Positions 13,335 to 37,757 of a stretch of 64,000 nt of DNA are shown in pieces. A program made the position numbers and the translations under genes. The stretch is from Pseudomonadota bacterium (lineage in GTDB: Bacteria > Pseudomonadota > Gammaproteobacteria > Burkholderiales > Burkholderiaceae_C): positions 147,508 to 211,507 of the forward strand of contig JAIUPH010000033.1 of assembly GCA_020161065.1 (NCBI GenBank), given 5' to 3'. The notes beneath the pieces are model-generated. The model made no database searches, was not told the DNA's origin, and saw only the letters and a list, made by a program, of their open reading frames with translations. The stretch's first letter is position 1. Every line of letters begins with the position of its first letter.

Positions 13335-13400
13335 ACTCTAGGTGCGGCCGCCGCTTCGGGCCAAGACGAATTCGCTCTGTGGCGATACGCGCGGCTTATG
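13335..13400 (-). promoter_or_regulatory. Nac-type LysR operator and sigma-70 promoter A
   Basis: Minus-strand promoter of the 2-hydroxyacid dehydrogenase/gluconate operon. CATAAG, TATCG (together CATA-N9-TAT), CAGAG and CGTCTTGG are in order. The octamer runs into -35 TTGGCC, followed by an 18-base spacer and -10 TAGAGT (13335-13340). The predicted start site leaves a leader of about 23 bases before ATG 13305. Four other promoters in the window have exactly the same layout and spacing. Confidence 0.82.
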
Positions 13401-13439
13401 GCGCCCGTGGCGGGCGGCGCCGTGGCGGGGCGCGGCGTG

Positions 13440-14363
13440 TCAGTCGTCGTCGAGCGGCCGGCCGTCGGGCGCCAGTTCGGCCACCAGCTCCAGCACGATG
13501 GCGCGCACCGCCTGGGCCGGCTCCGACAGCGCCGGCCGGTCGGACGTGCACAGCACCAGCGGCACCTCGATGCTGGGGTCGACGATGCGGCAAAGGCGCG
13601 CCTGCACGGCGGCCGCCACCGCCTGCGCGGCCGACGCCGGCAGCACCGTGGCGCCCACGCCGTTGCCGACGGCCGCCGACAGCGTGGCCGCCGACTCGAT
13701 CTCGGCCACCACGCGCGGCACCATCTGCTGGCCGGCGAAGGCCTCGTCGACGTAGCGCCGCAGGTAGTTGTGCGAACGCGGCAGCAGCAGTTCGATGTCG
13801 CGCAGTTCGGCCAGGCGCACCGGGTCGCGGCCGCCCAGCAAAGCCGCGGGGGCGACCAGCACCAGTTCCTCGGTCAGCAAGGGCTCGAAGCTCAGGCCTT
13901 GCACCAGGCTGCGGCCGCCGTAGAGCACGGCCATGTCCATGCGCCCATTGCCGACCAGCTCGCACAGCGTCGAGCCGAGGCTTTCGTTGAGATACAGCAC
14001 CACCTCGGGGTGGCGCGAGCGCACGGCCTTGAGCAGCGGCAGCGCCAGCGCCGAGGCCGCCGTGCCCGAGGCCAGCCCCACCGAGACCTGGCCCGTCAGC
14101 GCGCGGCCCGAAGCCCGCACGTCGGCGCGCGCTTGTTCCACCTGGCGCAGGATCTGCTGCGCATGGCGGTACAGCACGCGCCCGGCCTCGGTCGGGCTGA
14201 CGCCGCGGCTGGTGCGCAGCAGCAGCTGCTGGCCGAACTCGCCTTCCAGCGTGGCGATCTGCTGGCTGAGCGCCGGCTGCGCGATGTGCAGCACCTCGGC
14301 GGCCTGCGTCAGGCTGCCGACGTCGACGATCTTGATGAAGTACTTCAGGCGCCTGAGGTTCAC
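13440..14363 (-). CDS. Nac-like LysR-family transcriptional regulator
   Basis: This 307-residue LysR protein has an N-terminal winged helix-turn-helix (NLRRLKYFIKIVDVGSLTQA, AEVLHIAQPALSQQIATLEG) and a C-terminal effector-binding domain. The opening and the TEAGRVLYRHAQQILRQVEQAR linker helix are very close to Nac, the nitrogen assimilation control protein, and to the LysR at 31918-32856. GTG 14363 is preferred because it aligns with the GTG-started paralogue; a start further upstream would add a non-conserved Ala/Ser-rich tail. It is divergent from a second LysR gene and downstream of promoter A. It is one of the candidates to bind the five Nac-type sites in this window. Confidence 0.9.
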   Translation of the reverse strand: MNLRRLKYFIKIVDVGSLTQAAEVLHIAQPALSQQIATLEGEFGQQLLLRTSRGVSPTEAGRVLYRHAQQILRQVEQARADVRASGRALTGQVSVGLASGTAASALALPLLKAVRSRHPEVVLYLNESLGSTLCELVGNGRMDMAVLYGGRSLVQGLSFEPLLTEELVLVAPAALLGGRDPVRLAELRDIELLLPRSHNYLRRYVDEAFAGQQMVPRVVAEIESAATLSAAVGNGVGATVLPASAAQAVAAAVQARLCRIVDPSIEVPLVLCTSDRPALSEPAQAVRAIVLELVAELAPDGRPLDDD

Positions 14364-14452
14364 GGCGGGGCTCGGTGCGATGCCGGCGGCGGACGCCGGA
14401 TTCGAGCCGCCATTGTGGGCCGGCCCCAGCGGCACTCGCCGACAATCGCCCG

Positions 14453-15409
14453 ATGTCGGTCAACTTCAAGACGCTGCGCAGCTTCGTCGCCGCGGTCGAC
14501 GCCAGCAGCCTGTCGGCGGCGGCGGCCCGGCTGCAGCTGGCGCAGCCGGCGCTCAGCCACCAGATCGCCTCGCTGGAGAAGCACTTCCGCCAGCGCCTGC
14601 TGCTGCGCTCGAATGCCGGCGTCACGCCCACCGCGGCGGGGCACGAGCTGTACCGCCATGCCACGCTGCTGCTGCAGCAGCTGGAGCAGGCCGAGCGCGA
14701 CGTGGCCGGCCGCGGCAGCAGCCTGGCGGGCACGGTGTCGGTCGGGCTGGCGACCTACAGCACCACCTCGATCCTGTCGACGCCCTTGCTGCAGGCGGTG
14801 CGCGAGAAGTACCCCGAGGTGCAGCTCTTCATCAACGACAACTTCGGCCTCGTGCTCAGCGAGATGGTGATGGCCGGCCGCATGGACATGGCGCTGATCT
14901 ATGCGCCGACCCGCATCAAGGGCGTGGCGCTGCAGCCGATGCTGGTCGAACAGCTGTTCCTGATCGCCCCGCCCGACACCGTGCTGCCCGCCGGCTGCGA
15001 CGAGTCGGTCGCGCTCGCACAGCTCGCCGGCATGAACCTGCTGCTGCCCGGGCGCACGCACTACCTGCGGCGCCTGGTCGACGCCGCCTTCGCGCAGGCG
15101 CGGCTGACGCCGCGCGTGGCGGCCGAGATCGAGTCGGCCGCCACGCTGCGCGAGGCGATCGAATCGGGCCTCGGCGCCACGGTGCTGCCCTGGGCGCTGG
15201 CGGCCAGCTTCAGCGGCCGCGCGCCGCCGGTGGTGCGCCGCGTGGTCGAGCCCGAACTGCAGACGACGGTGTCGCTGTGCGTCTCCGACCACCTGAGCCT
15301 GACGCCGGCGGCGCAGGCCGTGAAGGCCGAGCTGGCGCAGGTGGTGGCGGCTTTCGTCGGCTCGGGCCACTGCGTGGGCACGCGGCTGCCGCCGCCGGTG
15401 CCCGCCTGA
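14453..15409 (+). CDS. Nac/CynR-like LysR-family transcriptional regulator
   Basis: This 318-residue LysR regulator has the DNA-binding helix-turn-helix in FKTLRSFVAAVDASSLSAAA and LQLAQPALSHQIASLEKHF, and an effector domain with VSVGLATYSTTS and GLGATVLPWALA. It is related to, but clearly more distant from, the two LRRLKYF-type proteins nearby. ATG 14453 is chosen because it directly precedes the conserved domain. It is transcribed divergently from the Nac-like gene at 13440-14363, with 89 bases between them and no copy of the 40-bp operator. It ends one base before the convergent aldolase gene, so its natural target could be the nine-gene operon that ends there; that is inference. Confidence 0.88.
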   Translation: MSVNFKTLRSFVAAVDASSLSAAAARLQLAQPALSHQIASLEKHFRQRLLLRSNAGVTPTAAGHELYRHATLLLQQLEQAERDVAGRGSSLAGTVSVGLATYSTTSILSTPLLQAVREKYPEVQLFINDNFGLVLSEMVMAGRMDMALIYAPTRIKGVALQPMLVEQLFLIAPPDTVLPAGCDESVALAQLAGMNLLLPGRTHYLRRLVDAAFAQARLTPRVAAEIESAATLREAIESGLGATVLPWALAASFSGRAPPVVRRVVEPELQTTVSLCVSDHLSLTPAAQAVKAELAQVVAAFVGSGHCVGTRLPPPVPA

Positions 15410-15410: not shown

Positions 15411-16115
15411 TCAGCGCGCCGGCTGCGACAGCTGGCGCATCAGCTGCACGCCGTCGGCGACGAAGGGGTCGGCGTGGTAGTAGATGAGCTGCGCGCCCTG
15501 CGCCACCAGGTGCGCCACGTCCTGCTTCACCGCCAGCGTGCCGGCCAGTCTGCCGGCCGCGCGAATGCGCCGCAGCGTGTCGTCCACCATGTCCAGCACC
15601 GCCTGCGCGCGGCGGCCGCCGGGGGGCACGTTGGGCGAGTGGCCCATCGATTGCGACAGGTCGCCGGGGCCGACGAAGAACACGTCGATGCCGTCCACCG
15701 CCAGGATGGCGTCGAGGTTGGACACCGCCTCCACCGATTCGACCATGCCGACCAGCAGCCGGTTCGCGTGGTCGTCGGGCACGGCATAGCGGAAGTGATG
15801 CACGACCTCGCGCGCGATGGCGGCGGTGTGGATCAGCGGCACCATCAGGCCGTCGGCGCCGGCATTCAGGCAGCGCGTGATCATCGAGCGCTCCTGGTTC
15901 TGCGGCCGCACGATGCCGAAGCCGCCGGCATGGCGCGCGGCCTTGGCCATGTGGTGGATGTCTTCGAAGCCGGGCAGGCCGTGCTCGCAGTCGATGAACA
16001 CCGCGTCGGCGCCGGATCGCACCAGCTTTTCGCACAGCGTCGCCGAGACGTGGTTGGGGTTGACCATCAGCACGCTCGCGCCGCCGGCCAGCCGGTCTTT
16101 CAAGGTCTTGCTCAT
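15411..16115 (-). CDS. HpcH/HpaI-type class II aldolase
   Basis: This 234-residue TIM-barrel enzyme belongs to the HpcH/HpaI/2-dehydro-3-deoxyglucarate aldolase group, which splits 2-keto-4-hydroxy acids to pyruvate and an aldehyde with a divalent metal. Conserved features are DAVFIDCEHG (near residue 40), RPQNQE (substrate Arg), GADGLMVPLI, LLVGMVESVEAV with the metal-binding Glu, and VFFVGPGDLSQSMG with the metal-binding Asp. It is the last gene of the long minus-strand operon and follows an SDR gene by seven bases, so it may cleave the product made by the hydantoinase-like and SDR enzymes encoded upstream. Confidence 0.88.
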   Translation of the reverse strand: MSKTLKDRLAGGASVLMVNPNHVSATLCEKLVRSGADAVFIDCEHGLPGFEDIHHMAKAARHAGGFGIVRPQNQERSMITRCLNAGADGLMVPLIHTAAIAREVVHHFRYAVPDDHANRLLVGMVESVEAVSNLDAILAVDGIDVFFVGPGDLSQSMGHSPNVPPGGRRAQAVLDMVDDTLRRIRAAGRLAGTLAVKQDVAHLVAQGAQLIYYHADPFVADGVQLMRQLSQPAR

Positions 16116-16122: not shown

Positions 16123-16923
16123 TCACTTGGGTTTGCCGGGCCAGCCGTCGGGGGCGCCCAGCCAGCGGCTGATCTCGCCGTCCGGCCCCTGGTCGCGGGC
16201 GAAGGTGGGGCTGATGACCAGTTGCTCGATGGTCGTGCGCGCCGGCAGCGTGCAGACCAGCGCGATGGCGCGCGCCACGTCGTCGGGGTCGACCATGCGC
16301 TCGCGCTCTTCGGCCGTCGGCGGCCGCACGCGCGTGTCCATGATGGGCGTGTTCACCTCGCCCGGCAGGATGGTTGTCGAGCGGATGTTCTGGTTGCGGA
16401 AGGTGGCGTGCACAAAGCTCATCAGGTTGCTCACCGCCGCCTTGGCCGCGCCATAGGGCGCGCCGCCCAGCAGGCCCGGCCGCAGCGCCGCCAGCGACGA
16501 CACCGTGACCACCGTGCCGCCGCCCTTGGCCAGCATGGCCGGCAGCACGGCCTGGATCAGCACGTAGACGGCGTTCAGGTTGACGGCGAGGGTGGCGTCC
16601 CAGTCGTCGGCGTCGACCCACAGCAGGTTGCGCACGCGGCTGGACGCGCCGGCGTTGTTGACCAGGATGTCCACCGGGCCGAGGTCGCGCTCGATGCCGT
16701 GCACCAGCGCGCGCAGCGCGTCGCGGTCTTCCAGGTGCGCGGGCCGCGCCCAGGCCTGGCCGCCGCCGGCGCGGACCTCGGCGGCCACCGCCTCCAGCGG
16801 CGCCGGCCGGCGGCCGGTGACGACCACGCGCGCGCCTTCGGCTGCCAGCCGCAGCGCCGTGGCACGGCCGATGCCGGTGCCGCCGCCGGTGACCAGCGCC
16901 ACCTGTCCGTCGAGCGCGGCCAT
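16123..16923 (-). CDS. short-chain dehydrogenase/reductase
   Basis: This 266-residue classical SDR has the cofactor motif TGGGTGIGRATALRL at residues 12-26, the NNAGASSRVRNLL segment, catalytic Ser in VTVSSLAALRPG and the YGAAKAAVSN active-site Tyr/Lys. R34-type residues after the second strand (VVVTGRRPAPL) suggest NADP preference. The C-terminal region (TIEQLVISPTFARDQG) resembles a subgroup of SDRs found beside amino acid and hydroxy acid degradation genes. The ATG is five bases after the hyuB stop codon, so it is translationally coupled within the liv-hyu operon. Its substrate is unknown. Confidence 0.85.
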   Translation of the reverse strand: MAALDGQVALVTGGGTGIGRATALRLAAEGARVVVTGRRPAPLEAVAAEVRAGGGQAWARPAHLEDRDALRALVHGIERDLGPVDILVNNAGASSRVRNLLWVDADDWDATLAVNLNAVYVLIQAVLPAMLAKGGGTVVTVSSLAALRPGLLGGAPYGAAKAAVSNLMSFVHATFRNQNIRSTTILPGEVNTPIMDTRVRPPTAEERERMVDPDDVARAIALVCTLPARTTIEQLVISPTFARDQGPDGEISRWLGAPDGWPGKPK

Positions 16924-16927: not shown

Positions 16928-18577
16928 TCAGGCTCCCGTCCAGCCGTACACGGCCTGCGCCTGCTGCGCGCTCACCAGGCCCTGGCGGAGGTCGTTCTCG
17001 ACCAGTTCGCGCGGGCGCTGCAGCGGGTTGCCCCAGCCGCCGCCGCCGGGCAGTTCCAGCTCCAGCCGGTCGCCTGGGTTGAGCGTCAGCTTGCCTTTCG
17101 GGAACACCGTCTCGCCGTTCAGCCGCACCGCGCCGCGCGTGCCGTCGTGGCCGCCGACGACGCCGAAGCACGGGTGCTTGACGCGTTCGGTGGACAGGTA
17201 GACGTTCATCGGCCGGTCCGACAGGTTGCGCAGAACGCCGCGCTGCCCCAGGCCGCCGCGGTACTTGCCGGCGCCGCCGGAATCGGGGATCAGCTCCTTG
17301 CGCTCGGTCAGCACCGGCACCGCCAGCTCGTACATCTCGATCGGCGTGACCTTGCAGTTGGACGGAAAGCTCAAGGTGTCCAGCCCGTCCAGCGTCGAGC
17401 GGCCGCCTTGCCCGCCGTGGAAGTTTTGCGCGCTGCCGTAGGCGCGGCCGTCGGCGGTGTGGCCCTGGCAGTTGATGCCCCAGATCGGCGCCCCGCCGCT
17501 GTCGCCCTTCACGCGGTCGGGCACCACGCCTTGCAGCGCGCGGAAGATCAGGCTCGGGATCACGTGGCCGACCAGGTTGCGCGCGGCGCCCGCGGCATGC
17601 GGGTGCGGGTTGAGGATGGTGCCGAGCGGCGCGTCGTCGGTGATCGGCAGCATGCAGCCTTCGTTGTTCGGCGTGTCGGGGTCGAGCAGGCACTTCAGCG
17701 CATACACCGTGTGCGCCACGCGGTAGTGCGGCACCACGTTGATGCCGCGCGCCACCTCGGGCGAGGTGCCGGCGTAGTCGACGTGGATGGCGTCGCCGCG
17801 CACCTGCACGTCCACGCACAGCTTGACGTCACTCTCGAAGCCGTCGATCGTCACCTCGGCCTTGTAGCTGCCTGGCGGCCAGGCGGCGATGGCCTTGCGC
17901 ATGTGCGCTTCGGATCGGCCGTGGATCGCCCGGCCCAGCGCCTGCACGTCGTCGAGGCCGTACTCGTCCATGAAGCGCGACAGCTCCCGGCTCATCACCT
18001 CGTTGGCGGCCACCATGCTCTGGATGTCGCCGCGCACCTCAGCCGGCAGGCGCACGCTGGCCTCGATGACCGCGAAGACGTCGGCATTCGGCACGCCGGC
18101 CTTGTACAGCTTCAACATCGGGATGCGGATGCCTTCCTCGAACATGTCGGTCGAGTCGGGGCTTTGCGGGCGGCCGCCGATGTCGGGCAGGTGCGCAATG
18201 CTGCCGGCGTAGGCGACGATGCGGCCGCCGCGGAAGATCGGCGTCAGCATCACCATGTCGGGCAGGTGGCCGGTGCCGATGGCCGGGTCGTTGGTGGCCA
18301 GCACGTCGCCGGGCTGCAGCGTCGCCGGCGGGAAGGCCGGCAGGAAGTGGTTCTGCGCCGCCATCGGCAGCGAGGTGATGAACACCGGGATCGACCAGGT
18401 GCACTGCGCCAGCGCGCGGCCTTCGGCGTCGAGCAGCACGGTCACGTAGTCGTGGTTCTCGCGCACGATGGGCGAGAACGCGGTGCGGCCGAGCGCCGAA
18501 TCGGCCTGGTCGGCGATGAAGACCAGGCGGTCCCACATCACCTGCAGCGTGATGGGGTCGTCGAAGTCGACGGTCAT
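16928..18577 (-). CDS. hydantoinase B / oxoprolinase family subunit
   Basis: This 549-residue protein is the HyuB-type subunit of ATP-dependent hydantoinases, 5-oxoprolinases and acetone or acetophenone carboxylases. The opening DPITLQVMWDRLVFIADQ, the SIPVFITSLP and GDVLATNDPAIGTGHLPDM stretches, and the glycine-rich PGGGGWGNP near the C-terminus are family marks. It overlaps the hyuA gene by four bases, as usual for the two subunits. The substrate cannot be told from the sequence; the liv-type transporter and the aldolase in the same operon suggest an imported cyclic amide or amino-acid derivative. The length is typical for HyuB (500-590). Confidence 0.9.
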   Translation of the reverse strand: MTVDFDDPITLQVMWDRLVFIADQADSALGRTAFSPIVRENHDYVTVLLDAEGRALAQCTWSIPVFITSLPMAAQNHFLPAFPPATLQPGDVLATNDPAIGTGHLPDMVMLTPIFRGGRIVAYAGSIAHLPDIGGRPQSPDSTDMFEEGIRIPMLKLYKAGVPNADVFAVIEASVRLPAEVRGDIQSMVAANEVMSRELSRFMDEYGLDDVQALGRAIHGRSEAHMRKAIAAWPPGSYKAEVTIDGFESDVKLCVDVQVRGDAIHVDYAGTSPEVARGINVVPHYRVAHTVYALKCLLDPDTPNNEGCMLPITDDAPLGTILNPHPHAAGAARNLVGHVIPSLIFRALQGVVPDRVKGDSGGAPIWGINCQGHTADGRAYGSAQNFHGGQGGRSTLDGLDTLSFPSNCKVTPIEMYELAVPVLTERKELIPDSGGAGKYRGGLGQRGVLRNLSDRPMNVYLSTERVKHPCFGVVGGHDGTRGAVRLNGETVFPKGKLTLNPGDRLELELPGGGGWGNPLQRPRELVENDLRQGLVSAQQAQAVYGWTGA

Positions 18578-20670
18578 GGCTTTGCCTCCAGCAGCATGAT
18601 GAGGTTGAAGCGGGCGTCCAGCGAGGCGCTGGCGCCGGGGCCCACGACCACCGTCGACTCGCGCTGTTCGACGATGGCCGGGCCCTGCACCACGACGCCG
18701 GGCGCCAGCGCGTAGTGGTCGTAGACGGGGGTGTCGACGAAGCCGCCGGCCTCGGCGAAGAACACCGGGCGGCTGCCCTTGCGGGGGTTGCGAACGGCTT
18801 GCGCCCGGCCGCGCATGCTGGCGACCGAGACCTCGTCCTTCGGGCCGCTGGCGCGCACGCGCCAGGTGATGACCTCGGCATCGGTGCCCGACACGTTGCG
18901 CCCGTACAGCCGCACGTAGGCATCGTGGAAGCGCTGCAGCAGCTCGTCCAGGAAGGCGCGATCGCCGGGGTCGCCCGCCGGCAGCGCGACCGAGATCTCG
19001 TGGCCCTGACCGACGTGGCGCATGTCGACGGTGTAGCTGACGCCGATCGCCGCCGGCGCCACGCCGCTGGCGGCCACCACCTCGCGCCCTTGCGCGGCCA
19101 GCGTGGCCAGCAGGGCTTGCACCTGCGCGGCGTTCCAGCGCGAGACGGCCATCGGCGCGCTGGTGGCCAGGTCGGCCGCCACCGGCGCGCCGAGCAGGCC
19201 GATGGCCGAGGTGACGCCGGCGCCCAGCGGGCAGATCACCTTGCGGATGCCGAGCTTGCGCGCCACGCCGTACGCATGCACCGGGCCGGCGCCGCCGAAG
19301 GCGATGAGCGGCAGCGCGCGCGGGTCGACGCCGCTGTCGGTGGCCTGCATCGCGGCAGCCTCGGCCATGCTCTCGTTGACCATGTCGTGGATGCCGAAGG
19401 CGCAGCGCTCGGCCGAGATGCCCAGCTCGTCGGCCAGCCGCGCCATCGCGCGCACCGCGGCGCTGCGGTCGAGCGCGAAGTCGCCGCCGAGGAACGAGTG
19501 TTCGTTCAAGTAACCCAGCAGCAGATCGGCATCGGTCACCGTCGGCTCGCTGCCGCCGCGGCCATAGCAGGCCGGCCCCGGCGCCGCCGCCGCGCTGCGC
19601 GGGCCCACCTGCAGCGTGCCCAGCCGCGTGCGCGAGGCGATGCTGCCGCCGCCGGCGCCGATCTCGATCATGTGGATCGACTGGATCTTCAGCGGAAAGC
19701 CGCTGCCCTTGCGGAAGCGTTCGTGGCGCGCCACCTCCAGCTCGTTGGCGATCTGCGGCTGCCCGTCGGGGATCAGGCACAGCTTGGCGGTGGTGCCGCC
19801 CATGTCGAACGACAGCACGCTGGCCTCGCCGGCGGCGCCGGCGTAGCCCGCCGCCGCCACCGCGCCGGCGGCCGGCCCCGATTCGATCAGCCGCACCGGC
19901 GTGCGCGCGGCGCTGGCGCTGGGCACCACGCCGCCGCTGGAGGTCATCCACAGCAGCTGGCCGGCCACGCCGCGCGCGCCCAGCTCGCGTTCCAGGTGGT
20001 CCACGTGCTGCACCATCATCGGCCGCGTGTAGGCGTTGGCCACGGTGGTGGAGGCGCGGTCGTACTCGCGCACCTCGGGGCAGACGCTGGACGACAGCGA
20101 GACCGAGACCCCCGGCGCCCATTCGGCCAGCAGCTCGGCGATGCGCTGCTCGTGCTGCGGGTACTTGTAGGCGTGCAGCAGGCACACCGCCACCGAGCGG
20201 ATGCCTTGCGCGACGAGCTGCGCGGCCACTGCGCGGACCGAGGCCTCGTCGAGCGGCGTCACCACCTCGCCGCCGGCGCTGATGCGCTCCACCACGCCGA
20301 AGCAGCGGTCGCGCGGCACCAGCGGCTCGGGGTACTGGATGCGCAGGTCGTACAAGTCGTAGCGGCCTTCGGTGCGGATGCGCAGCATGTCCTGGAAGCC
20401 GTCGGTCGTGATGAACGCGGTGCTGACGCCCTTGCGCTCCAGTACGGCGTTGGTCACCACGGTGGTGGCGCCCAGGATCTGCAGCGCGCCTTCGCCGGCG
20501 CGCGCGGCCTGGCCGCGACGCACCTTGGCCAGGATCTCGTCGATGCCCTGCAGCACGGCGCGCGCCGGCGCGTCGGGCGTGCTCAGCACCTTGTGCAGCA
20601 CGATGCTGCCGTCGTCGTCGGAGAAGGCGAAGTCGGTGAACGTGCCGCCGGTGTCGAAGGCGAGTTTCAT
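18574..20670 (-). CDS. hydantoinase A / oxoprolinase family subunit
   Basis: This 698-residue HyuA-type protein has the actin-like ATPase fold with the phosphate loop FDTGGTFTDF at residues 5-14. A second phosphate motif SFDMGGTTAKLCL is near residue 295, and ALPLIAFGGAGPVHAYG is near residue 430. With HyuB it would hydrolyse or carboxylate a cyclic amide or ketone at the cost of ATP. The length (about 690) is usual. It starts 19 bases after the LivF stop codon and overlaps hyuB by four bases. Being placed directly behind a complete branched-chain type ABC transporter implies that the imported compound is the substrate of this enzyme. Confidence 0.9.
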   Translation of the reverse strand: MKLAFDTGGTFTDFAFSDDDGSIVLHKVLSTPDAPARAVLQGIDEILAKVRRGQAARAGEGALQILGATTVVTNAVLERKGVSTAFITTDGFQDMLRIRTEGRYDLYDLRIQYPEPLVPRDRCFGVVERISAGGEVVTPLDEASVRAVAAQLVAQGIRSVAVCLLHAYKYPQHEQRIAELLAEWAPGVSVSLSSSVCPEVREYDRASTTVANAYTRPMMVQHVDHLERELGARGVAGQLLWMTSSGGVVPSASAARTPVRLIESGPAAGAVAAAGYAGAAGEASVLSFDMGGTTAKLCLIPDGQPQIANELEVARHERFRKGSGFPLKIQSIHMIEIGAGGGSIASRTRLGTLQVGPRSAAAAPGPACYGRGGSEPTVTDADLLLGYLNEHSFLGGDFALDRSAAVRAMARLADELGISAERCAFGIHDMVNESMAEAAAMQATDSGVDPRALPLIAFGGAGPVHAYGVARKLGIRKVICPLGAGVTSAIGLLGAPVAADLATSAPMAVSRWNAAQVQALLATLAAQGREVVAASGVAPAAIGVSYTVDMRHVGQGHEISVALPAGDPGDRAFLDELLQRFHDAYVRLYGRNVSGTDAEVITWRVRASGPKDEVSVASMRGRAQAVRNPRKGSRPVFFAEAGGFVDTPVYDHYALAPGVVVQGPAIVEQRESTVVVGPGASASLDARFNLIMLLEAKP

Positions 20671-27641: not shown

Positions 27642-28014
27642 GGTGTTGGATGCCTGCAAGTTGGTCGTGACCGCGCTCGGCGCCGTTGCCGATGCCTTGG
27701 GCAGCGACTGTGCCGATCGTGAGCGCCGGCGCCAAGCGGGCGACCGACGAGCGACGGCGATGGCGGCTCGGGCGACGACGGGCATCGACGAAATGCGCCG
27801 AACGGCGCGCGGCGGCGCGGCGGCGCGCGGCGGCGTGCGCCGGCGTTCGGCAACGCGCGCTGGGCTGCGCTGTCCGCAACGCGCTTCGTCGCCGCGGGGC
27901 GCCGCTTGGCGGTCCGCCAGCGTCTCCCGTCGCGATGGGGCGATGGCCGGGCCAAGCGGCGCGCTACAGTGCGCAGCCGTTTCAGCGCTCGCCGCTTCAG
28001 CACCCCGCCGGACC
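27642..28014. other. 373-base divergent intergenic region, no gene recognised
   Basis: Very GC-rich and full of GCGGCG-type runs, with open frames on both strands but no start with a ribosome-binding site and no recognisable protein. It must hold the promoters of the membrane protein (minus) and the sensor kinase (plus). GCTACAGT near 27962-27969 is a possible -10 for the kinase. Confidence 0.5.
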
Positions 28015-29897: not shown

Positions 29898-30554
29898 TCA
29901 GTTGTTGCAGCGCGCTTCCAGCGCGTCGATGAACGAACGGTCCCAGCGGCCTTCTTCCATCGCCTGGATCGTGCGCGCCTCGGCTTCCAGCACGCCGCGG
30001 GCCTTGGCGATCAGCGTGGCGGCTTCGGCGGGCGGGAAGGCCAGCAGGCCGTCCTGGTCGCCGAGCACGATGTCGCCGGGGTTGACGACCATGCCGCCGA
30101 CCTGGATCGTTACGTTGATGTCACCGGGCCCGTCCTTGTACGGCCCGCGGTGGGTGACGCCGCGCGCGTAGACCGGGAAGTCGCGGTTGCGGATCTCGGC
30201 CACGTCGCGGATGGCGCCGTCGATCACCACGCCGGCCACGCCGATCTTCGCGGCGTAGAACGTGAGGATGCCGCCGACCACCGCATTGGCAAGGTCGCCG
30301 CCGGCGTCGACCAGCAGCACGTCGCCGGGGCGGCAGAACTCCAGCGCGCGCAGGTAGGTGAGGTTGTCGCCGCCGCGCGAGCGCGCCGTCACCGCGGTGC
30401 CGGCCATCGTCAGCCGCTGCGGGCGGTGGTAGGGCTGCAGACCGATGGTGCCCACGCTGCGGTGCAGGTTGTCGCTGATGGCGGCCAGCGGCAGCTCGCG
30501 CAGCGCGGCGATCAGCGTTTCGTCGGCCTGCGGCGCCGAAGGGTTCTTGCGCAT
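29898..30554 (-). CDS. RraA-like protein (4-hydroxy-4-methyl-2-oxoglutarate aldolase family)
   Basis: This 218-residue protein belongs to the RraA / HMG aldolase family, whose aldolase members cleave 4-hydroxy-2-oxo acids or decarboxylate oxaloacetate with a divalent metal. Conserved segments are ISDNLHRSVGTIG, GTAVTARSRGGDN, GDVLLVDAGGDLANAVVGGI (metal-site Gly/Asp region) and GVVIDGAIRDVAEI with the catalytic Arg-Asp pair. It lacks the extra features of RraA proper and fits the aldolase branch. It starts 18 bases after the second aminotransferase gene, in the same direction, and should be co-transcribed from promoter C, so it probably works on the 2-oxo acid formed by that enzyme. Confidence 0.87.
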   Translation of the reverse strand: MRKNPSAPQADETLIAALRELPLAAISDNLHRSVGTIGLQPYHRPQRLTMAGTAVTARSRGGDNLTYLRALEFCRPGDVLLVDAGGDLANAVVGGILTFYAAKIGVAGVVIDGAIRDVAEIRNRDFPVYARGVTHRGPYKDGPGDINVTIQVGGMVVNPGDIVLGDQDGLLAFPPAEAATLIAKARGVLEAEARTIQAMEEGRWDRSFIDALEARCNN

Positions 30555-31829: not shown

Positions 31830-31895
31830 ACGGTAGGCCGCCCGGCGCGCGAAGGCCAAGACGAGATTGGTCTGTCTCGATAGGCGATGCTTATG
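31830..31895 (-). promoter_or_regulatory. Nac-type LysR operator and sigma-70 promoter C
   Basis: Minus-strand promoter of the second aminotransferase gene, in the divergent gap to the Nac-like lysR gene. CATAAG and CTATCG (CATA-N9-TAT), CAGAC and CGTCTTGG are followed by -35 TTGGCC, an 18-base spacer and -10 TACCGT (31830-31835). The CATA end lies only 23 bases before the GTG of the LysR gene at 31918, so binding could also repress that gene. Confidence 0.83.
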
Positions 31896-31917: not shown

Positions 31918-32856
31918 GTGAACCTGCGCCGCCTGAAGTACTTCGTCAAGATCGTCGATATCGGCAGCCTGACGCAGGCGGCCGACGTGCTGCACATCGC
32001 GCAGCCGGCGCTGAGCCAGCAGCTCGCCACGCTGGAAGGCGAGGTGCGCCAGCAGTTGCTGACGCGCACCAAGCGCGGCGTCACGCCCACCGAGGCCGGC
32101 AAGGTGCTGTACCGCCACGCGCAGCTGATCCTGCGCCAGTGCGACCAGGCGCGCGTCGACATGGAAGCCGCCGGCCGCGGCCTTTCGGGCGCCGTGGCGG
32201 TGGGCCTGGCGCCGGGCACCGCGGCCGCCGGCCTGGCGCTGCCGCTGCTGCGCACCGTGCGCGCGCGCCACCCCGGCGTGCTGCTGTACCTGAACGAGAC
32301 CTACGGCAGCACGCTGTCGGAACTGGTGATGAACGGCCGCATGGACCTCGCCGTGCTGTACGGCGGCCGCGTGCAGGTGCACGGCCTGCAGTTCCTGCCG
32401 TTGCTGAAGGAGCCGCTGTACGTGGTGGGCCCGGCCAACCTGCCGGCGCCGCCCGACGCGGTGCCGCTGCAGCGCCTGGCCGAGATGGACTTGTTCCTGG
32501 CGCGGCCCTACAACGTGGTGCGCAAGATGGTCGACGAGGCCTTCGCCGGCATCGGCGCCGCGCCGCGCGTGGTGGCCGAGATCGAGTCGGCCAGCACGCT
32601 CACCGCGGTGATCGCCGACGGCCTGGGCGCCACCATCCTGCCCGAGTCGATGGCGCGCACCGTGGTCGCCTCGTGCAACGCCTGGCAGAGCCGCATCGTC
32701 GAGCCGGCCATCGAGGCGCCGCTGGCGCTGTGCCAGTCCGACCACCTGCCGCTGACCGAGCCGGCGCAGGCCGTCAAGGACATCCTGCTGGAGCTGGTGG
32801 CCACGCTGCCGGGCAGCCTGATCGCGCCCGACGAGGTGCGTCTGGCGGTGTCATAA
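31918..32856 (+). CDS. Nac-like LysR-family transcriptional regulator
   Basis: This 312-residue regulator is the closest in the window to Nac of enteric bacteria: NLRRLKYFVKIVDIGSLTQA, then ADVLHIAQPALSQQLATLEG, RTKRGVTPTEAGKVLYRHAQ and GAVAVGLAPGTAA follow Nac almost residue by residue. The N-terminal winged helix-turn-helix is followed by the linker helix and a two-lobed effector domain (GLGATILPESMA). GTG 31918 starts exactly at the conserved N-terminus. It sits between promoter C (divergent) and promoter D, whose CATA box overlaps this gene's stop codon, which makes it the first candidate for the factor that reads the five sites. Whether it senses nitrogen, as Nac does through its expression, or a ligand is unknown. 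Confidence 0.92.
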   Translation: MNLRRLKYFVKIVDIGSLTQAADVLHIAQPALSQQLATLEGEVRQQLLTRTKRGVTPTEAGKVLYRHAQLILRQCDQARVDMEAAGRGLSGAVAVGLAPGTAAAGLALPLLRTVRARHPGVLLYLNETYGSTLSELVMNGRMDLAVLYGGRVQVHGLQFLPLLKEPLYVVGPANLPAPPDAVPLQRLAEMDLFLARPYNVVRKMVDEAFAGIGAAPRVVAEIESASTLTAVIADGLGATILPESMARTVVASCNAWQSRIVEPAIEAPLALCQSDHLPLTEPAQAVKDILLELVATLPGSLIAPDEVRLAVS

Positions 32857-32917
32857 GTCGGCCTTATCGGGGCACAGCCAAACCGTCTTGGTCGGCGGCG
32901 GGCTTCGCGGCTAACTT
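32852..32917 (+). promoter_or_regulatory. Nac-type LysR operator and sigma-70 promoter D
   Basis: Plus-strand promoter of the biotin carboxylase/Pxp operon. CATAAG overlaps the TAA of the lysR gene; then TTATCG (CATA-N9-TAT), CACAG and CGTCTTGG, -35 TTGGTC, an 18-base spacer and -10 TAACTT (32912-32917). Only eight bases separate the -10 from ATG 32926, so the messenger would be leaderless or nearly so. Confidence 0.82.
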
Positions 32918-32925: not shown

Positions 32926-33414
32926 ATGGATGCGCCGCAGATCAAGGCTTTCATCGACGCGATGGCGTCGTCGGACCTCGCCGAGATGGAGGTCAGCCAC
33001 GAGGGCTGGACGCTGCGGCTGGTGCGGCGGCCTGAAGCGGGCGCGGCCGCTGCGCGGCCGGAGGCCGGCGCGGCCGCTGTGCGGCCCGCGGCGGCAGCGC
33101 CGGCGCGCCGTGCAACGGCAACGGTCGCGCCCGTCACACCCGCGGCGCCCGCCACCGCCACGCCCGCCACCGCCACGCCGGCCAACGACCTGAGCGCCCC
33201 GATGTTCGGCGTGCTGCACTGGCAGCCGTCGCCCGGCGCCGCGCCTTTCGTCGCCGCCGGGCAGGCGGTGCGCGCGGGGCAGACGCTGTGCGTGATCGAG
33301 GCGATGAAGATCTTCAACGAAGTGGCGGCCGACCGCGACGGCATCGTCGACGCGCTGCTGGCCACGGGCGGCGCCGAGGTCGAAGCCGGCCAGCCGCTGC
33401 TGCGCTACCGCTGA
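32926..33414 (+). CDS. biotin carboxyl carrier protein, AccB-like
   Basis: This 162-residue carrier has an N-terminal AccB-like helix region (residues 1-35), a flexible Ala/Pro/Thr-rich linker that includes a duplicated EAGAAAxRP unit, and a C-terminal biotinyl domain. Lys128 in [10 protein letters not shown] is the biotin attachment site. It would shuttle carboxyl groups from the biotin carboxylase encoded next to a carboxyltransferase. The ATG lies eight bases after the predicted -10 of promoter D and has no evident Shine-Dalgarno sequence. The gene order BCCP-BC-PxpB-PxpC-BCCP'-PxpA suggests a dedicated carboxylase rather than the acetyl-CoA carboxylase of fatty acid synthesis. Confidence 0.9.
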
Positions 33415-33427: not shown

Positions 33428-34771
33428 ATGTTCGACACCGTGCTCATCGCCAACCGCGGCGAGATCGCCTTGCGCATCCTGCGCGCCTGCCGCGGGCTGG
33501 AGCTGAAGGTCGTCGCCGTCTATTCCGAAGCCGACCGCGACGCGCCGCACGTGCGCCTGGCCGACCAGGCGCTGTGCATCGGCCCGGCGGCGCCGGCGCG
33601 CAGCTACCTGAACCAGGCGGCCATCCTGGCGGCGGCCGCGGTCAGCGGCGCGCAGGCCATCCACCCGGGCTACGGCTTCCTGTCGGAGAACGCCGGCTTC
33701 GTGCAGCGCGTGGCCGATGCCGGGCTCGTCTTCATCGGCCCCAGCGCCGAGTGCATCCGCACCATGGGCGACAAGGTGGCCGCCAAGCGCGCGATGCGCG
33801 CCGCCGGCGTGCCTTGCGTGCCGGGCCCCGACGGCAGCCTGCCCGACGATGCGGCCGCCGTGCAGGCCATCGCGCGCGAAATCGGCTACCCAGTGATCGT
33901 CAAGGCCGCCGGCGGCGGCGGCGGCCGCGGCATGCGCGTGGTGCGCGACGAAGCCGCGCTGGCCGAGGCGCTGGCGCTGACGCGCGAGGAAGCGCGCCGC
34001 GCCTTCGGCAACCCCGAGGTCTACATCGAGAAGTTCCTGCTGCACCCGCGGCACGTGGAGATCCAGGTGCTGGCCGATGCCCATGGCCAGGCGCTGTGGC
34101 TGGGCAGCCGCGACTGTTCGCTGCAGCGCCGCCACCAGAAGGTGCTGGAAGAAGCGCCGGCACCCGGCATCGCGCCGGCGGCGCTGGCCGCGGTGGGTGA
34201 ACGCTGCGCCGAGGCCTGCCGCCGCATCGGCTACTGCGGCGTCGGCACCTTCGAGTTCCTGTACGAAGACGGCGCCTTCTTCTTCATCGAGATGAACACG
34301 CGGCTGCAGGTCGAGCACCCGGTGACCGAGATGACCACCGGCATCGACATCGTGCAACAGCAGCTTCGCGTCGCGCGCGGCGAGCCGCTGGCGCTGACGC
34401 AAGCGCAGGTCGATTGCCGCGGCCATGCCTTCGAATGCCGCATCAACGCCGAGCATCCCGAGACCTTCGCGCCGTCGCCCGGCCGCATCAGCGAATGGCG
34501 GCTGCCCGGCGGCTTCGGCGTGCGCGTCGACAGCCACGCAGCCGCCGGCTACCAGGTGCCGCCGTACTACGACTCGATGATCGGCAAGCTGGTGGTGCAC
34601 GGCGCCACGCGCGCCGATGCGCTGGCCCGCTTGCGGCTGGCGCTGGACGAAATGCACGTCGGCGGCATCGCCACCAACCTGGCGCTGCACCGGCGCCTGG
34701 TGCGCGACGGCGACTTCGCCGCCGGCGGCGTCGACATTCACCATCTCGAACGTTGGCTGGCTGCAGTATGA
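33428..34771 (+). CDS. biotin carboxylase subunit, AccC-like
   Basis: This 447-residue ATP-grasp enzyme carboxylates biotin using bicarbonate and ATP. It has the N-terminal [19 protein letters not shown], the [10 protein letters not shown] motif, the ATP loop [13 protein letters not shown], the [11 protein letters not shown] segment and the catalytic [14 protein letters not shown]. The length is that of stand-alone AccC. It follows its carrier protein gene by 13 bases and overlaps the PxpB gene by four, so all are produced together. In urea carboxylase the same biotin carboxylase domain is fused to AHS1/AHS2 (PxpB/PxpC-like) domains, which is the reason to suspect a functional complex here. 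Confidence 0.93.
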
Positions 34772-35433
34772 GCGGCATGAACGAGCAGCCGTCGATCAGC
34801 CGCCTGGGCACGCGCGCGCTGCTGTTCGAGGCGCCGGGCGAGACCACGCTGGCCACGCAGCAGCGCATCTGGTCGCTGGCGCGCGAGGCCGAGACCTGGC
34901 CCGAGGTGCGCGAAGCCGTGCCCGGCATGAACAACCTCATGCTGTGCTGGCGCCGCGCGCCGCAGCGCTGCGACGCCATCGAGGCGCGGCTGCACGCCGC
35001 CTGGGCCGCCGCGCGGCCGCTGGCGCTGCAAGGCCGCGTGGTCGAACTCGACGTGGTCTACGGCGGTGACGGCGGCCCGCACCTGGCCGACGTGGTGGCG
35101 CACACCGGGCTGGCCATCGACGAGATCGTCGAGCGCCACAGCGCGCCGGTCTACCCCGTCTACGCGCTCGGCAGCCACCCCGGCTATTGCTACCTGGGCG
35201 GCATGGACCCGCGCATCGCCACGCCGCGGCGCCCGGTGCCGGTGCTGCGCATTCCCGGCGGCGCGGTGTCGATCGGCGGCGCGCAGACCGGCGTCTCGGC
35301 GTCCGACGGCCCCAGCGGCTGGAACACCATCGGCTGCACCGCGATGAGCTTCTTCGACCCGCAGCGCGACCCGCCGGCGCTGCTGGCGCCGGGCGACAGC
35401 CTGCGCTTTCGCGTCAAGCAGGTGATCCGGTGA
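34768..35433 (+). CDS. pxpB: PxpB / KipI / AHS1-family subunit
   Basis: This 221-residue protein is the AHS1 (allophanate hydrolase subunit 1) domain, present in 5-oxoprolinase PxpB, KipI and urea carboxylase. It shows [43 protein letters not shown] and the highly conserved [19 protein letters not shown] near residues 135-153. With PxpC it forms a heteromer that acts on 5-oxoproline or serves as a carboxyltransferase on urea-like amides. ATG 34768 overlaps the biotin carboxylase stop (ATGA), and the gene overlaps pxpC by four bases. Confidence 0.92.
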
Positions 35434-36425
35434 TCGAAGTGCTCGCCACCGGCGCGCTGGCCACGGTGCAGGACCTGGGCCGCGAAGGCGCGCTGCGCTG
35501 GGGCGTGGGCAGCGCCGGCGCGATGGACCCGCTGGCGCTGGCCGCCGGCAACCTGCTGCTGGGCAACGCCGACGATGCCGCCGGCATCGAGCTGCCGGTG
35601 CTGCCGTTTCGCGTGCGCTTCCAGCGCGACGGCGGCTTCGCCGTCACCGGCGCCGATGTCGACGCCCGGCTCGACGGCCGCCCGCTGCTGCCCTGGACCG
35701 CGCAGCGCGCGCGCGCCGGCCAGGAGCTGCTGCTCAATCTGCCGCGCCGCGGCGCCACCTGGCCCGCGAGCCGCGCCTACCTGTGCCTGGCCGGCGGCGT
35801 GGACGTGCCGCGGCTGCTGGGCTCGCGCAGCACGCAGATGCGCGGCGCCTTCGGCGGCTTCGAAGGCCGCGCGCTGCGCGCGGGTGACGTGTTGGTTGCG
35901 GGTGCTGCCTCGGCTGAAGAATTCTTGGAGGGCGTGGGTCTGGTGCCGCCGGCGCTGGCGATGCCGCTGCTGGCCGATGGTTTGCCGGCCTTGCGCGTGC
36001 TGCCGGCCGCCGAATACGCGGCCTACACCGCGGCTTCGCGCGCCGCCTTCTGGGCCGAGCCCTGGAAGATCAGCGCGCAGAGCGACCGCTACGGCTACCG
36101 CCTGCAAGGCCCGCCGCTGCAGCCGCTGGCGCCGCTGGAAATGCGCTCGCACGGCATCGTGCCCGGCGTGATCCAGGTGCCGCCGGGCGGCCAGCCCATC
36201 GTGCAGATGCGCGACGCGCAGCCCTCGGGCGGCTACCCCAAGCTGGGCACGGTGATCGAGGCCGACCTCTGGCGGCTGGGGCAGGCGCCGGTCGGCAGCC
36301 GCGTGCGCTTCGTCGAATGCGATTGGAACGGCGCGCTGGCCGCGCTGGCGCAGGTGGACCATTGGCTGGCGGAGGCGCGGCGCTGGCTGGGGCTGCAGCG
36401 CGGGGCAGGGGGCATCGCGCCATGA
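35430..36425 (+). CDS. pxpC: PxpC / KipA / AHS2-family subunit
   Basis: This 331-residue protein is the AHS2 domain partner of PxpB. Family marks are [19 protein letters not shown] at the start, the GVGSAGAMDPLALAAGN loop, LGSRSTQMRGAFGGFEGR, and the C-terminal SQSDRYGYRL-like AQSDRYGYRLQGP and EMRSHGIVPGVIQVPPGGQP motifs that line the carboxyltransferase-type active site. GTG 35430 overlaps the pxpB stop codon, and the gene overlaps the next one by four bases, so expression is tightly coupled. Confidence 0.92.
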   Translation: MIEVLATGALATVQDLGREGALRWGVGSAGAMDPLALAAGNLLLGNADDAAGIELPVLPFRVRFQRDGGFAVTGADVDARLDGRPLLPWTAQRARAGQELLLNLPRRGATWPASRAYLCLAGGVDVPRLLGSRSTQMRGAFGGFEGRALRAGDVLVAGAASAEEFLEGVGLVPPALAMPLLADGLPALRVLPAAEYAAYTAASRAAFWAEPWKISAQSDRYGYRLQGPPLQPLAPLEMRSHGIVPGVIQVPPGGQPIVQMRDAQPSGGYPKLGTVIEADLWRLGQAPVGSRVRFVECDWNGALAALAQVDHWLAEARRWLGLQRGAGGIAP

Positions 36426-36895
36426 CGAGCGCCATGACGCCCGACGACATCGCCCGCCTCGCCGGCTGGCTGCGCGACAGCGGCATCGGCCTGCTGGAAC
36501 TGCGCGGCCCGGGCACCGCGCTGCGGCTGCGGCAGGGCGCCGGCGGCATCACGGCGGAGACCATCGCGCCGGCCGAACTTGAAGCGCACGCTCAAGCGCA
36601 CGATGAAGCGCACGCCGAACCCCACGCCGAAGCGCAGCCCGAAGCGCCGCTGATCGTCAGCGCCCCCTCGGTCGGCGTCTTCCTGCACCGCCACCCGCTG
36701 CGCGCCGACGACCTGGCCGCGCCGGGCACGGCCGTCGCCGCCGGCCAGGTGCTGGGGCTGCTGCAGATCGGCCCGCTGCTGCTGCCGGTGGCGGCGCCGG
36801 CGGCGGCGCTGCTGCAAGATCGCCTCGCGCCGCACGGCGCGGCGGTCGGCTACGGCACGCCGCTGGCGGCGCTGCAACCCATCGACCCGAACTGA
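36422..36895 (+). CDS. degenerate biotinyl/lipoyl-domain protein without the biotin lysine
   Basis: This 157-residue protein has the layout of a second carrier protein: an N-terminal helical region (DDIARLAGWLRDSGIGLLEL), a linker with alternating His, Ala and Glu (AHAQAHDEAHAEPHAEAQ), and a C-terminal biotinyl-type beta barrel (APSVGVFLHRHPL, VAAGQVLGLLQIGPLLLPVA, VGYGTPLAALQP). Where a carrier has EAMK, this sequence reads QIGP, so it cannot be biotinylated or lipoylated at the usual hairpin. The fold seems intact, and the gene is coupled by ATGA overlap to pxpC, so it is probably a structural or regulatory subunit and not a decayed gene. Confidence 0.82.
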   Translation: MTSAMTPDDIARLAGWLRDSGIGLLELRGPGTALRLRQGAGGITAETIAPAELEAHAQAHDEAHAEPHAEAQPEAPLIVSAPSVGVFLHRHPLRADDLAAPGTAVAAGQVLGLLQIGPLLLPVAAPAAALLQDRLAPHGAAVGYGTPLAALQPIDPN

Positions 36896-36907
36896 GGACC
36901 TCGCCGG

Positions 36908-37675
36908 ATGGACATCGACCTCAACGCCGACCTCGGCGAAGGCTACGGCCCCTGGCGCATGGGCGACGACGAAGGGCTGCTGCAGGTGCTGTCGTCGGCC
37001 AACGTGGCCTGCGGCTTCCACGCCGGCGACCCGCTGATCATGCAGCGCACGGTGCGCCGCGCCGGGCAGCTCGGCGTCGACATCGGCGCCCACGTCGGCT
37101 ACCCCGACCGCCAGGGCTTCGGCCGCCGCGCCATGCACGTCGAGCCCGACGAGCTGGCCGCGATGGTGACCTACCAGCTCGGCGCGCTGGCCGGCATCGC
37201 GCGTGCCGCCGGTCAGCGCATGACGCACATGAGCTTTCACGGCGCGCTCGGCAACCTGGTGGCCGCCGACGCCGGCCTGGCCGCGGTGCTGGTGGGCGCG
37301 GTGGCGGCATTCGACCCGACGCTGATCGTCAGCTCGTCGCCCAGCGCGGCGATCGAAGGCGCCGCGGCGGCGCAGGGGCTGCGCGTGGCCACCACCTTCC
37401 TGGCCGACCGCGCCTGCGACGCGCAAGGCCTGCTCGTCCCGCGCAAGCTGCCGGGCGCGGTGATCCACGACGAGGCCGAGCTGCTGGCCCGCGTGCGCCG
37501 GCTGCTGCGCGAAGGCACCGTGCTCAGCCACGACGGTCAGGCCATCGCGCTGCGGCCGCGCTCCATCCTCGTGCATGGCGACACGCCGGGCGCGCTGGCG
37601 CTGGCGCGCGCGGTGCGGCGCGAGATCGAAGCCGCCGGCGCGCGCGTGCTGCCGATCTCGCGGCAATGGGCCTGA
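36908..37675 (+). CDS. pxpA: 5-oxoprolinase subunit A (LamB/YcsF family)
   Basis: This 255-residue protein is PxpA, which with PxpBC hydrolyses 5-oxoproline to glutamate using ATP. The opening DIDLNADLGEGYGPW, NVACGFHAGDPLIMQRTV, GAHVGYPDRQGFGRR and the C-terminal SILVHGDTPGALALA are all diagnostic. It is the last gene of the operon from promoter D and begins 12 bases after the degenerate carrier gene. Its presence shows that the operon handles a lactam of the 5-oxoproline type; the extra biotin carboxylase genes raise the possibility of a carboxylation step. Confidence 0.93.
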   Translation: MDIDLNADLGEGYGPWRMGDDEGLLQVLSSANVACGFHAGDPLIMQRTVRRAGQLGVDIGAHVGYPDRQGFGRRAMHVEPDELAAMVTYQLGALAGIARAAGQRMTHMSFHGALGNLVAADAGLAAVLVGAVAAFDPTLIVSSSPSAAIEGAAAAQGLRVATTFLADRACDAQGLLVPRKLPGAVIHDEAELLARVRRLLREGTVLSHDGQAIALRPRSILVHGDTPGALALARAVRREIEAAGARVLPISRQWA

Positions 37676-37691
37676 ACAGGGTTGACCCTGA

Positions 37692-37757
37692 CATACGAGC
37701 CCCTTATCGCTCCAGACCCAATCCGTCTTGGCGCCGCGCCAGCCCGGCCGATAGATT
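37692..37757 (+). promoter_or_regulatory. Nac-type LysR operator and sigma-70 promoter E
   Basis: Plus-strand promoter of the SDR/amino acid ABC operon. CATACG and TTATCG (CATA-N9-TAT), CAGAC and CGTCTTGG, -35 TTGGCG, an 18-base spacer and -10 TAGATT (37752-37757). The start site would fall about 15 bases before ATG 37779. Confidence 0.83.

Follow-up and report, generated by a model that had tools for sequence, protein, structure and literature searches.

Five Near-Identical 40-bp Sites as Putative Promoters of One LysR-Type Regulon in a Burkholderiaceae_C Bacterium

Which regulator reads a promoter that recurs, almost letter for letter, before several operons of one short stretch of a bacterial genome, and what do those operons have in common? 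The question is raised by a locus of a Burkholderiaceae_C bacterium (NCBI GenBank assembly GCA_020161065.1, contig JAIUPH010000033.1, positions 147,508 to 211,507), in which an earlier note had described five "Nac-type" promoters with a common 66-bp plan. The window, by which the whole stretch of 64,000 nt is meant, has 71% G+C and lies within a 6.29-Mb assembly (here G000; 98.73% complete, 41 contigs). All five segments were confirmed from the sequence, and with high probability they are the putative promoters of a single LysR-type regulon that is specific for one pathway.

Each segment is composed of a 40-mer followed by a -10 hexamer. On the minus strand, M1 (13361-13400, with the -10 hexamer ending at 13335) is the putative operator and promoter of a ghrB-gntK-gno-idnD row, M2 (26715-26754, -10 ending at 26689) that of the aminotransferase gene AT_A2 and a row of Liv-type ABC transporter and HyuAB genes, and M3 (31856-31895, -10 ending at 31830) that of the aminotransferase gene AT_A1 and an RraA-like gene, lying between AT_A1 and the divergent regulatory gene lysR2. 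On the plus strand, M4 (32852-32891, -10 ending at 32917) would serve an operon for a biotin carboxyl carrier protein (BCCP), a biotin carboxylase (BC), PxpBC and PxpA, and M5 (37692-37731, -10 ending at 37757) an operon for an SDR oxidoreductase and an ABC transporter. The 40-mers are invariant at 19 of 40 positions, one more than the 18 counted earlier, when A29 was missed; T61, A62 and T66 of the -10 element are invariant as well. An upstream palindrome of the T-N11-A type, ATA-N9-TAT, is found in all five sites, and so is a second box that has the TTGGNN sequence of the -35 in common with the promoter, the two box centres being 21 bp apart and in helical phase. AGAC-N7-GTCT is complete in three of the five copies, as had been reported, and TTGGNN, an 18-base spacer and TAnnnT hold in every one. 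The placement of the second box over the -35, likened earlier to LysR activators, is borne out by a bipartite LysR-type operator plan in all five sites, and the 40-mer together with the -10 element has the predicted anatomy of a promoter activated by a LysR protein. In M4, the TAA of the CATAAG box (32854-32856) doubles as the stop codon of lysR2.

The genome was scanned with a pattern of 18 fixed positions drawn from these five sites, the reversed pattern serving as a control. A variable-gap form of the pattern gave 5 matches in the own assembly and 0 for the control; at up to 3 mismatches in 18 the same five sites and no others were found, all within 24.4 kb, again with 0 for the control. 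No genome-wide scatter was therefore seen at this threshold, in a scan that covered the full 40-mer and not weaker single boxes. About 5e-6 matches would be expected from base composition, a figure to be read in the knowledge that the pattern was defined from the same five sites; because of this origin the independent test lies in other genomes, where the pattern holds. Among 100 relatives, searched at up to 2 mismatches, matches were found in 7 genomes, with 4 hits of the reversed control. Besides the own genome, G006 has 4 sites, G012 has 3 and G016 has 1, all upstream of orthologues of window genes; G001, G037 and G099 have a single site each at 2 mismatches, the one in G037 resembling a catB-type sibling described below. 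The counterpart of M2 in G006 stands with 0 mismatches before the orthologous gene, and the row of genes behind it is kept too.

A wider sample was obtained by a LysR-alignment scan of genome contigs, from which the best 80 of 496 confirmed relatives were kept. These loci, which are thus selected by their LysR gene, amount to 1.47 Mb of alpha-, beta- and gammaproteobacterial DNA; some end at contig ends, and two (L022 and L024) appear to be G006 and G012 again. They contain 239 sites, namely 118, 86, 20, 11 and 4 with 0, 1, 2, 3 and 4 mismatches, the corresponding figures for the reversed control being 0, 0, 0, 1 and 7 (8 in total). As many as 220 sites precede homologues of three genes (77 AT_A1, 74 BCCP, 69 SDR), 13 more precede homologues of other window genes (233 of 239 in all), and 6 precede none. 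The exact set of AT_A1, BCCP and SDR stands behind the motif in 59 of the 80 loci and is the commonest set. The 40-mer, which the earlier note had expected before orthologous genes in sister species if its proposal was right, is present there, in G006, G012 and G016 as well as in the 80 loci.

From 221 gene-assigned sites with 0-2 mismatches, the consensus CATAAG-N5-CtTATc-N4-CA.Agc.Aa.ccGTCTTgGc was derived, with TA.c.T 18 bases after TTGGNN. To calculate information content, 200-bp stretches at least 75% alike were removed, which left 58 AT_A1, 48 BCCP and 48 SDR sites. In bins of 10 bp, the content per base was 1.08-1.61 bits in the 40-mer, 0.03-0.36 bits upstream, 0.19-0.53 bits from the site to the -10, 0.63-0.73 bits at the -10 and 0.03-0.24 bits beyond it. 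As far as sequence comparison can tell, such a profile is the phylogenetic footprint of an operator and its promoter. It also bears on the idea that the sites arose by recent duplication of a single promoter segment or belong to a repeat element, as five similar copies inside 24.4 kb might suggest. For each class of orthologous sites, similarity falls outside the 40-mer and the -10; in the window, the free positions vary among the copies and their flanks are unlike; and in other genera counterparts of M3, M4 and M5 stand ahead of the corresponding genes. Since similarity is confined to the 40-mer and the -10, a repeat or duplication was rejected, and its probability is close to nil.

Could the motif instead be a conserved sigma-70 promoter with generic LysR architecture, and no single regulon behind it? 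A similar plan (e.g., CATGCC-N5-GGTAT ... CAGTCTAAAAGCGTCTTGG) does stand before muconate cycloisomerase genes with a divergent gene for a BenM/CatM-like LysR protein. In the five loci of this catB type (L112, L113, L114, L115 and L122), an ATACC/ATGCC-type first box is combined with a GTCTTGG end (GTGTTGG in L115) and a divergent LysR gene; the muconate cycloisomerase downstream is above the TIGR02534 cut-off in L113, L114 and L115, and the LysR protein, tested in L113, has BenM and CatM as its best hits, below their cut-offs. The sibling has, however, another first palindrome and 1-2 mismatches, and multiple sites go together with LysR2, the product of lysR2. When a sample of 299 genomes of the family was searched at up to 2 mismatches, 20 genomes matched (reversed control, 7 hits), and the five with at least 2 sites (G000, G597, G609, G642 and G671) are exactly those with a LysR protein of at least 70% identity; another 14 matching genomes have one hit each at 1-2 mismatches, five of them on the catB-type plan. 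The 233 sites before window-gene homologues speak in the same sense, in loci selected by LysR, and a generic promoter is regarded as very improbable. The likeness to activators of the BenM/CatM/BhbR1 kind is one of anatomy, with an upstream T-N11-A palindrome and a weaker second box over the -35 and, for BenM/CatM, a similar 40-bp plan and a divergent regulator at muconate cycloisomerase genes. They differ in the palindrome (ATGCC/ATACC-N5-GGTAT in the catB sibling, ATAAG-N5-CTTAT here), in the genes served and in that several promoters have one 40-bp form here.

If there is a single regulon, three LysR proteins of the window come into question as its regulator. LysR2 (31918-32856, plus strand), a Nac-like LysR-type regulator, scores 488.7 bits with NF008410 (cut-off 309), and its paralogue LysR1 (13440-14363, minus strand; 65% identical) scores 435.3 bits at the same cut-off. 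LysR3 (14468-15409, plus strand, start inferred), a more distant member with the Pfam domains HTH_1 and LysR_substrate, is divergent from LysR1, and the LysR1/LysR3 pair is kept in G006. Compared with E. coli Nac, LysR2 is 52% identical overall, with agreement at 56 of 66 residues in the DNA-binding domain and at 97 of 238 in the remainder, and LysR1 agrees at 52 of 66 DNA-binding residues. Between LysR1 and LysR2 the counts are 56 of 66 and 144 of 241, and between LysR3 and LysR2 they are 35 of 66 and 100 of 238. The earlier description of LysR1 and LysR2 as very Nac-like thus stands for their coordinates and DNA-binding domains and fails for the sensor half; by residue count, the DNA-reading part of both is Nac-like and the sensing part is not. 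The lysR2 gene lies between M3 and M4, and its homologue lies between the AT_A1 and BCCP sites in most listed loci. LysR2 is the probable, though still putative, activator of the sites, which LysR1 or LysR3 may share. In G597, whose genome keeps three motif sites, the LysR2 homologue (contig C7, 24686-25558) has one in-frame TAG and is possibly a pseudogene or an assembly error.

Does the likeness to Nac extend to its function? Enteric nac is transcribed from an NtrC/sigma-54 promoter, Nac is active without a small-molecule inducer, and its recognition consensus is ATA-N9-TAT. In a true Nac regulon, LysR2 and LysR1 would stand under NtrC and sigma-54 and work inducer-free, and the operons would answer to nitrogen shortage and not to a substrate. 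This would be in keeping with the scores of both proteins above the NCBIfam NAC cut-off, with the match of the DNA-binding domain to that of E. coli Nac (56 of 66 residues) and with sigma-54-like elements (at least 9/11) upstream of 24 of the 80 lysR2 homologues, a score reached by 60 of 1600 shuffles; Variovorax accounts for 18 of these 24 loci, and both Pseudomonas loci are among them. In the window there is no sigma-54 element near lysR2: within the 250 bp scanned, the best match is 8/11 at -234, inside the aminotransferase gene. The best score for lysR1 is 7/11, and E. coli nac, the control, has 10/11 at -71; the NtrC-like site scores 11/12 for E. coli nac and 7/12 for the window lysR2. 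Nor is there an overall excess of NtrC-like sites in the 80 loci, although L088 scores 11/12 and L066 10/12. Moreover, lysR2 lies inside the cluster that it seemingly controls, the sites of the genome form one local regulon of 24.4 kb, and the sensor half departs from that of Nac at most of its residues. Nitrogen control of lysR2 is accordingly possible in some relatives and unsupported in the window, and a true Nac regulon is considered quite unlikely. What stays of the "Nac-type" label is the DNA-binding domain; the implied nitrogen-type regulon does not fit sites so local and without a near sigma-54 element. The ATA-N9-TAT box also loses its force as a pointer to Nac, given that the accessible text of PMC12016517 has the same box, with a putative weaker box over the -35, for another LysR protein, BhbR1, and that of PMC5002191 a similar one, CTATA-n9-TATAG, for the LysR family at large.

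As an observation on the relatives, a sigma-54-like element (9-10/11) starts 26-51 bp before the lysR2 homologue in L043, L045, L052, L066, L088, L097, L099, L101 and others; the named loci are mostly from Variovorax, and also from Pseudomonas and Herbaspirillum. When the NAC family was searched for, only E. coli was positive among 14 control genomes, and a class-wide search, with 1 positive genome of 274, namely the own one, was uninformative. In the records many homologues are labelled nac, 15 of 20 among the matches listed, enteric Nac included. Among the matches listed, of 217 records, Nac-like LysR genes with 41-82% identity lie on plasmids of Rhizobium, Agrobacterium, Bradyrhizobium and others. 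In seven plasmid regions from outside E. coli, every nac-labelled gene has pxp or hyu genes and one for an aminotransferase as its neighbours, and the plasmid regions L147, L148 and L149 have pxp genes, an aminotransferase and one site each at 1-2 mismatches. A LysR tree, made by a quick method that leaves E. coli Nac on a long branch in an uncertain position, intermixes alpha- and betaproteobacteria, which fits horizontal transfer.

What the operons have in common becomes clearer from their genes. Behind M3, on the minus strand, lie AT_A1 (30573-31781), a class I/II aminotransferase with a GTG start inferred, above the PRK06107 cut-off and supported by Pfam, and an RraA-like aldolase family protein (29898-30554; PRK06201 above cut-off, Pfam PF03737). 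The M4 operon, on the plus strand, starts with BCCP (32926-33414), which has the AMK motif and 108.7 bits with TIGR00531, below the cut-off of 115.2, and continues with the AccC-like BC (33428-34771; TIGR00514 above cut-off), PxpB (CT_C_D; 34768-35433; PF02682) and PxpC (CT_A_B; 35430-36425; PF02626, TIGR00724 above cut-off, equivalog NF045499 below it with 294.7 of 500). A second BCCP-like protein follows (36434-36895, start inferred), with a weak BCCP match far below the cut-off and no Pfam hit; it is without the [AVSG]MK biotin-attachment motif, has a homologue in 65 of the 80 loci and is perhaps a structural subunit. PxpA (LamB/YcsF; 36908-37675) ends the operon; at E <= 1e-20 a search of this genome gave no other homologue. 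PxpA, PxpB and PxpC, the 5-oxoprolinase gene set, are thus all present, and the adjoining BC and BCCP genes suggest a biotin-assisted variant of PxpABC. Behind M5, also on the plus strand, are the SDR oxidoreductase (37779-38525; NCBIfam and Pfam searches) and a polar amino acid-type ABC transporter (38539-41616), with permeases at 38539-39240 and 39244-40002, the ATPase in the 3' part of an open reading frame (ORF) at 38595-40754 and a binding protein that ends at 41616; the ORF at 39971-40615 was rejected as an ABC gene, being in the wrong reading frame. The interval from the M2 unit to the M3 unit also encodes, at 27640-29882, a two-component pair of a histidine kinase and a BtsR/LytR-like response regulator. 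This response regulator is not favoured as the protein that binds the sites, because neither member of the pair has a match in the 80 loci while the motif is present there.

The row behind M2, on the minus strand, begins with AT_A2 (25443-26651), a class I/II aminotransferase with a TTG start inferred, also above the PRK06107 cut-off and supported by Pfam. It is followed by a Liv-type ABC transporter (20689-25342), whose ORF limits overlap: the binding protein is at 24113-25342, the permeases are within 23208-24080 and 22204-23613, and the ATPases are within 21431-22819 and at 20689-21441. Next come HyuA (18574-20670; PF01968, PF05378, PF19278) and HyuB (16928-18559, start inferred; PF02538), both of the hydantoinase/oxoprolinase families, the SDR oxidoreductase gene sdr2 (16123-16923) and an HpaI/KDG-type aldolase gene (15411-16115), the last two with NCBIfam matches below the cut-offs. 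With HyuA and HyuB, the gene set of a Hyu-type ATP-dependent lactamase is present. In G006, LysR1 and LysR3 are on the contig of the Hyu genes, and in the Variovorax loci L052, L060 and L072 a block of Hyu, sdr2, hpaI, LysR3 and LysR1 adjoins one of RraA, AT_A1, motif and LysR2. On the plasmid pTiAF3.44 of Agrobacterium larrymoorei, the row runs Liv, aminotransferase, nac-like LysR, HyuAB, SDR, aldolase, SDR, gluconokinase, 2-hydroxyacid dehydrogenase and idnD, and motif-like sites are seen ahead of HyuA, with 2 mismatches, and ahead of the Liv binding protein, with 3. From this gene content, the Hyu and Pxp blocks look like two builds of one pathway.

The genes behind M1, on the minus strand, are ghrB (12217-13305), for a 2-hydroxyacid dehydrogenase of the glyoxylate reductase/GhrB-like type (Pfam; NCBIfam below cut-off), gntK (11697-12212, start inferred), for a gluconokinase of the GntK/IdnK type above the TIGR01313 cut-off, gno (10924-11700), for a gluconate 5-dehydrogenase-like SDR (Pfam; NCBIfam below cut-off), and idnD (9869-10903), for an L-idonate 5-dehydrogenase-like protein (Pfam; best NCBIfam match PRK09880, below cut-off). 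At 55% identity or more, at least one of the four is found in 30 of the 80 loci and all four in 6. In six loci (L027, L074, L075, L078, L083 and L091) one motif heads an undivided row of AT_A1, RraA, ghrB, gntK, gno and idnD; in the window the same row is split into AT_A1-RraA behind M3 and ghrB-gntK-gno-idnD behind M1, about 18.5 kb apart, each part with its own 40-mer. In three further loci gno is preceded by a separate motif, at 0 mismatches in L058 and at 2 each in L050 and L055. The regulon thus extends, in prediction, to the gluconate/idonate genes. More generally, the composition given earlier, which joined these genes to both aminotransferases, the RraA-like gene, the biotin carboxylase/Pxp operon and the ABC operon, is supported by conservation. 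Further targets are suggested in other loci: a porin gene lies about 300 bp behind a site that is exact in Cupriavidus L083 and has 3 mismatches in Ralstonia L078, and sites with 3 mismatches each precede a gene for a Liv-type binding protein in L031 and one for a TRAP-type binding protein in L100.

Several observations weigh against one LysR2-driven regulon or against its composition. In G554 (76% complete, 850 contigs) one exact site stands before BCCP, and only a LysR protein of 46% identity was found; G016 has one good site, close to the edge of a contig of 5,957 bases, and no close LysR2 was found there. Four Rahnella sites carry 4 mismatches each. A sample of the order, searched at up to 1 mismatch, had matches in 1 of 399 genomes, only the own one, so that the system is sparse. 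Several enzyme names are based on matches below NCBIfam cut-offs, and the RraA-like protein (29898-30554) is without the D-x20-R-D motif of true aldolases. No M1 counterpart was found beside LysR1 in G006; the M1 genes are kept in the regulon despite this gap because of the shared row behind one motif in six loci. Lastly, the nac-like LysR of pTiAF3.44 is nearest LysR3 (47%) and not LysR2. This last point, with the motif-like sites at Hyu-module genes in G006 and pTiAF3.44, fits a division of labour in which M1 and M2 answer to LysR1 or LysR3 and M3-M5 to LysR2, with a common site that stems from the shared descent of the regulators. The 56 of 66 DNA-binding residues that LysR1 and LysR2 have in common are compatible with it, as is the position of LysR1/LysR3 beside HyuAB, sdr2 and hpaI in the three Variovorax loci and on the Hyu contig of G006. 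Yet the M1/M2 and M3-M5 sequences do not differ clearly, no LysR1-type hit is listed in the six loci with M1 genes after AT_A1 beside LysR2, and LysR3 has only 35 of 66 DNA-binding residues in common with LysR2. A division of this kind is a possibility to be taken seriously, although it falls well short of an even chance.

For the single regulon under LysR2, the following mechanism is proposed. LysR2 would act as a tetramer, of which one dimer would sit on the upstream palindrome (consensus CATAAG-N5-CTTAT; centre 21 bp ahead of the second box). The second box (CAnAg ... GTCTTGG), in overlap with the -35, would take the other dimer. Once the protein senses a pathway intermediate, transcription would be switched on from the sigma-70-type promoter TTGGNN-18-TAnnnT; the binding by LysR2 (perhaps by LysR1 or LysR3), the activation and the inducer are all inferred. 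The regulon would comprise uptake systems, two lactam-opening machineries (BCCP-BC-PxpABC and HyuAB), two aminotransferases, aldolase-family proteins (the RraA-like one and, by linkage, the HpaI-like one), SDR oxidoreductases and the gluconate/idonate branch, and the order of the pathway might be uptake, oxidation, lactam opening, transamination, aldol-type cleavage and the sugar-acid branch. Going by the family names, the genes may serve to break down a lactam, or compounds from which 5-oxoproline-like lactams form by cyclisation, via a ring-opened amino acid, a 2-oxo acid and sugar-acid-type intermediates, a tentative reading that comes somewhat below an even chance.

How does such a system compare with those already described? 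The nearest in function is PxpR/pxpTABC of Corynebacterium glutamicum, where uptake is likewise regulated and a lactam, 5-oxoproline, is opened with the help of PxpABC; in the accessible text of PMC13274462 PxpR is a GntR-type repressor, whereas the present regulator is of the LysR type and BC and carrier proteins, aminotransferases and a sugar-acid branch are added. The authors of that report state that they know of no earlier study on how bacteria regulate their 5-oxoproline metabolism. As for the Hyu side, the part of PMC8554961 that is accessible describes lactamase/hydantoinase genes in the presumed opine region of Ti plasmids, and pTiAF3.44 carries a Hyu version of the present cluster with a nac-like LysR, whose substrate may or may not be an opine. 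According to the available portion of PMC4231840, deoxyfructosyl-glutamine, an Amadori compound, occurs in tumours of chrysopine-type strains. No description of this regulon or gene set was among the literature matches listed, in line with the earlier note, which knew of none; this is weak evidence, given that subscription literature was mostly outside the coverage.

A bolder proposal can be put forward, although it is speculative and rather doubtful in its full extent. One Nac-related LysR lineage might control a single, so far unrecognised pathway that has been built twice from unrelated parts (BCCP-BC-PxpABC and HyuAB), each build having a separate aminotransferase, aldolase-family protein, SDR, transporter and regulator, and the two leading into a shared ghrB-gntK-gno-idnD branch. 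As the substrate one might think of a lactam from plants or galls that carries a sugar moiety or a polyol chain, for example a 5-oxoproline conjugate of the Amadori/opine type, and enteric nac might be such a regulator turned to general nitrogen control.

On the evidence of these comparisons, the five sites would represent a new and well-defined regulon of a known LysR kind, carried in the databases under a misleading name, Nac. Many proteins recorded as "nitrogen assimilation transcriptional regulator NAC" may be regulators of a pathway of lactam catabolism. The 40-bp site is a precise marker for genes of a pathway not yet characterised, and links to it the gluconate/idonate genes, a porin and two machines of unrelated kind for opening lactams. 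With a LysR operator that is near-fixed across alpha-, beta- and gammaproteobacteria while operons have been split and genes swapped, the co-evolution of regulator and operator becomes testable.

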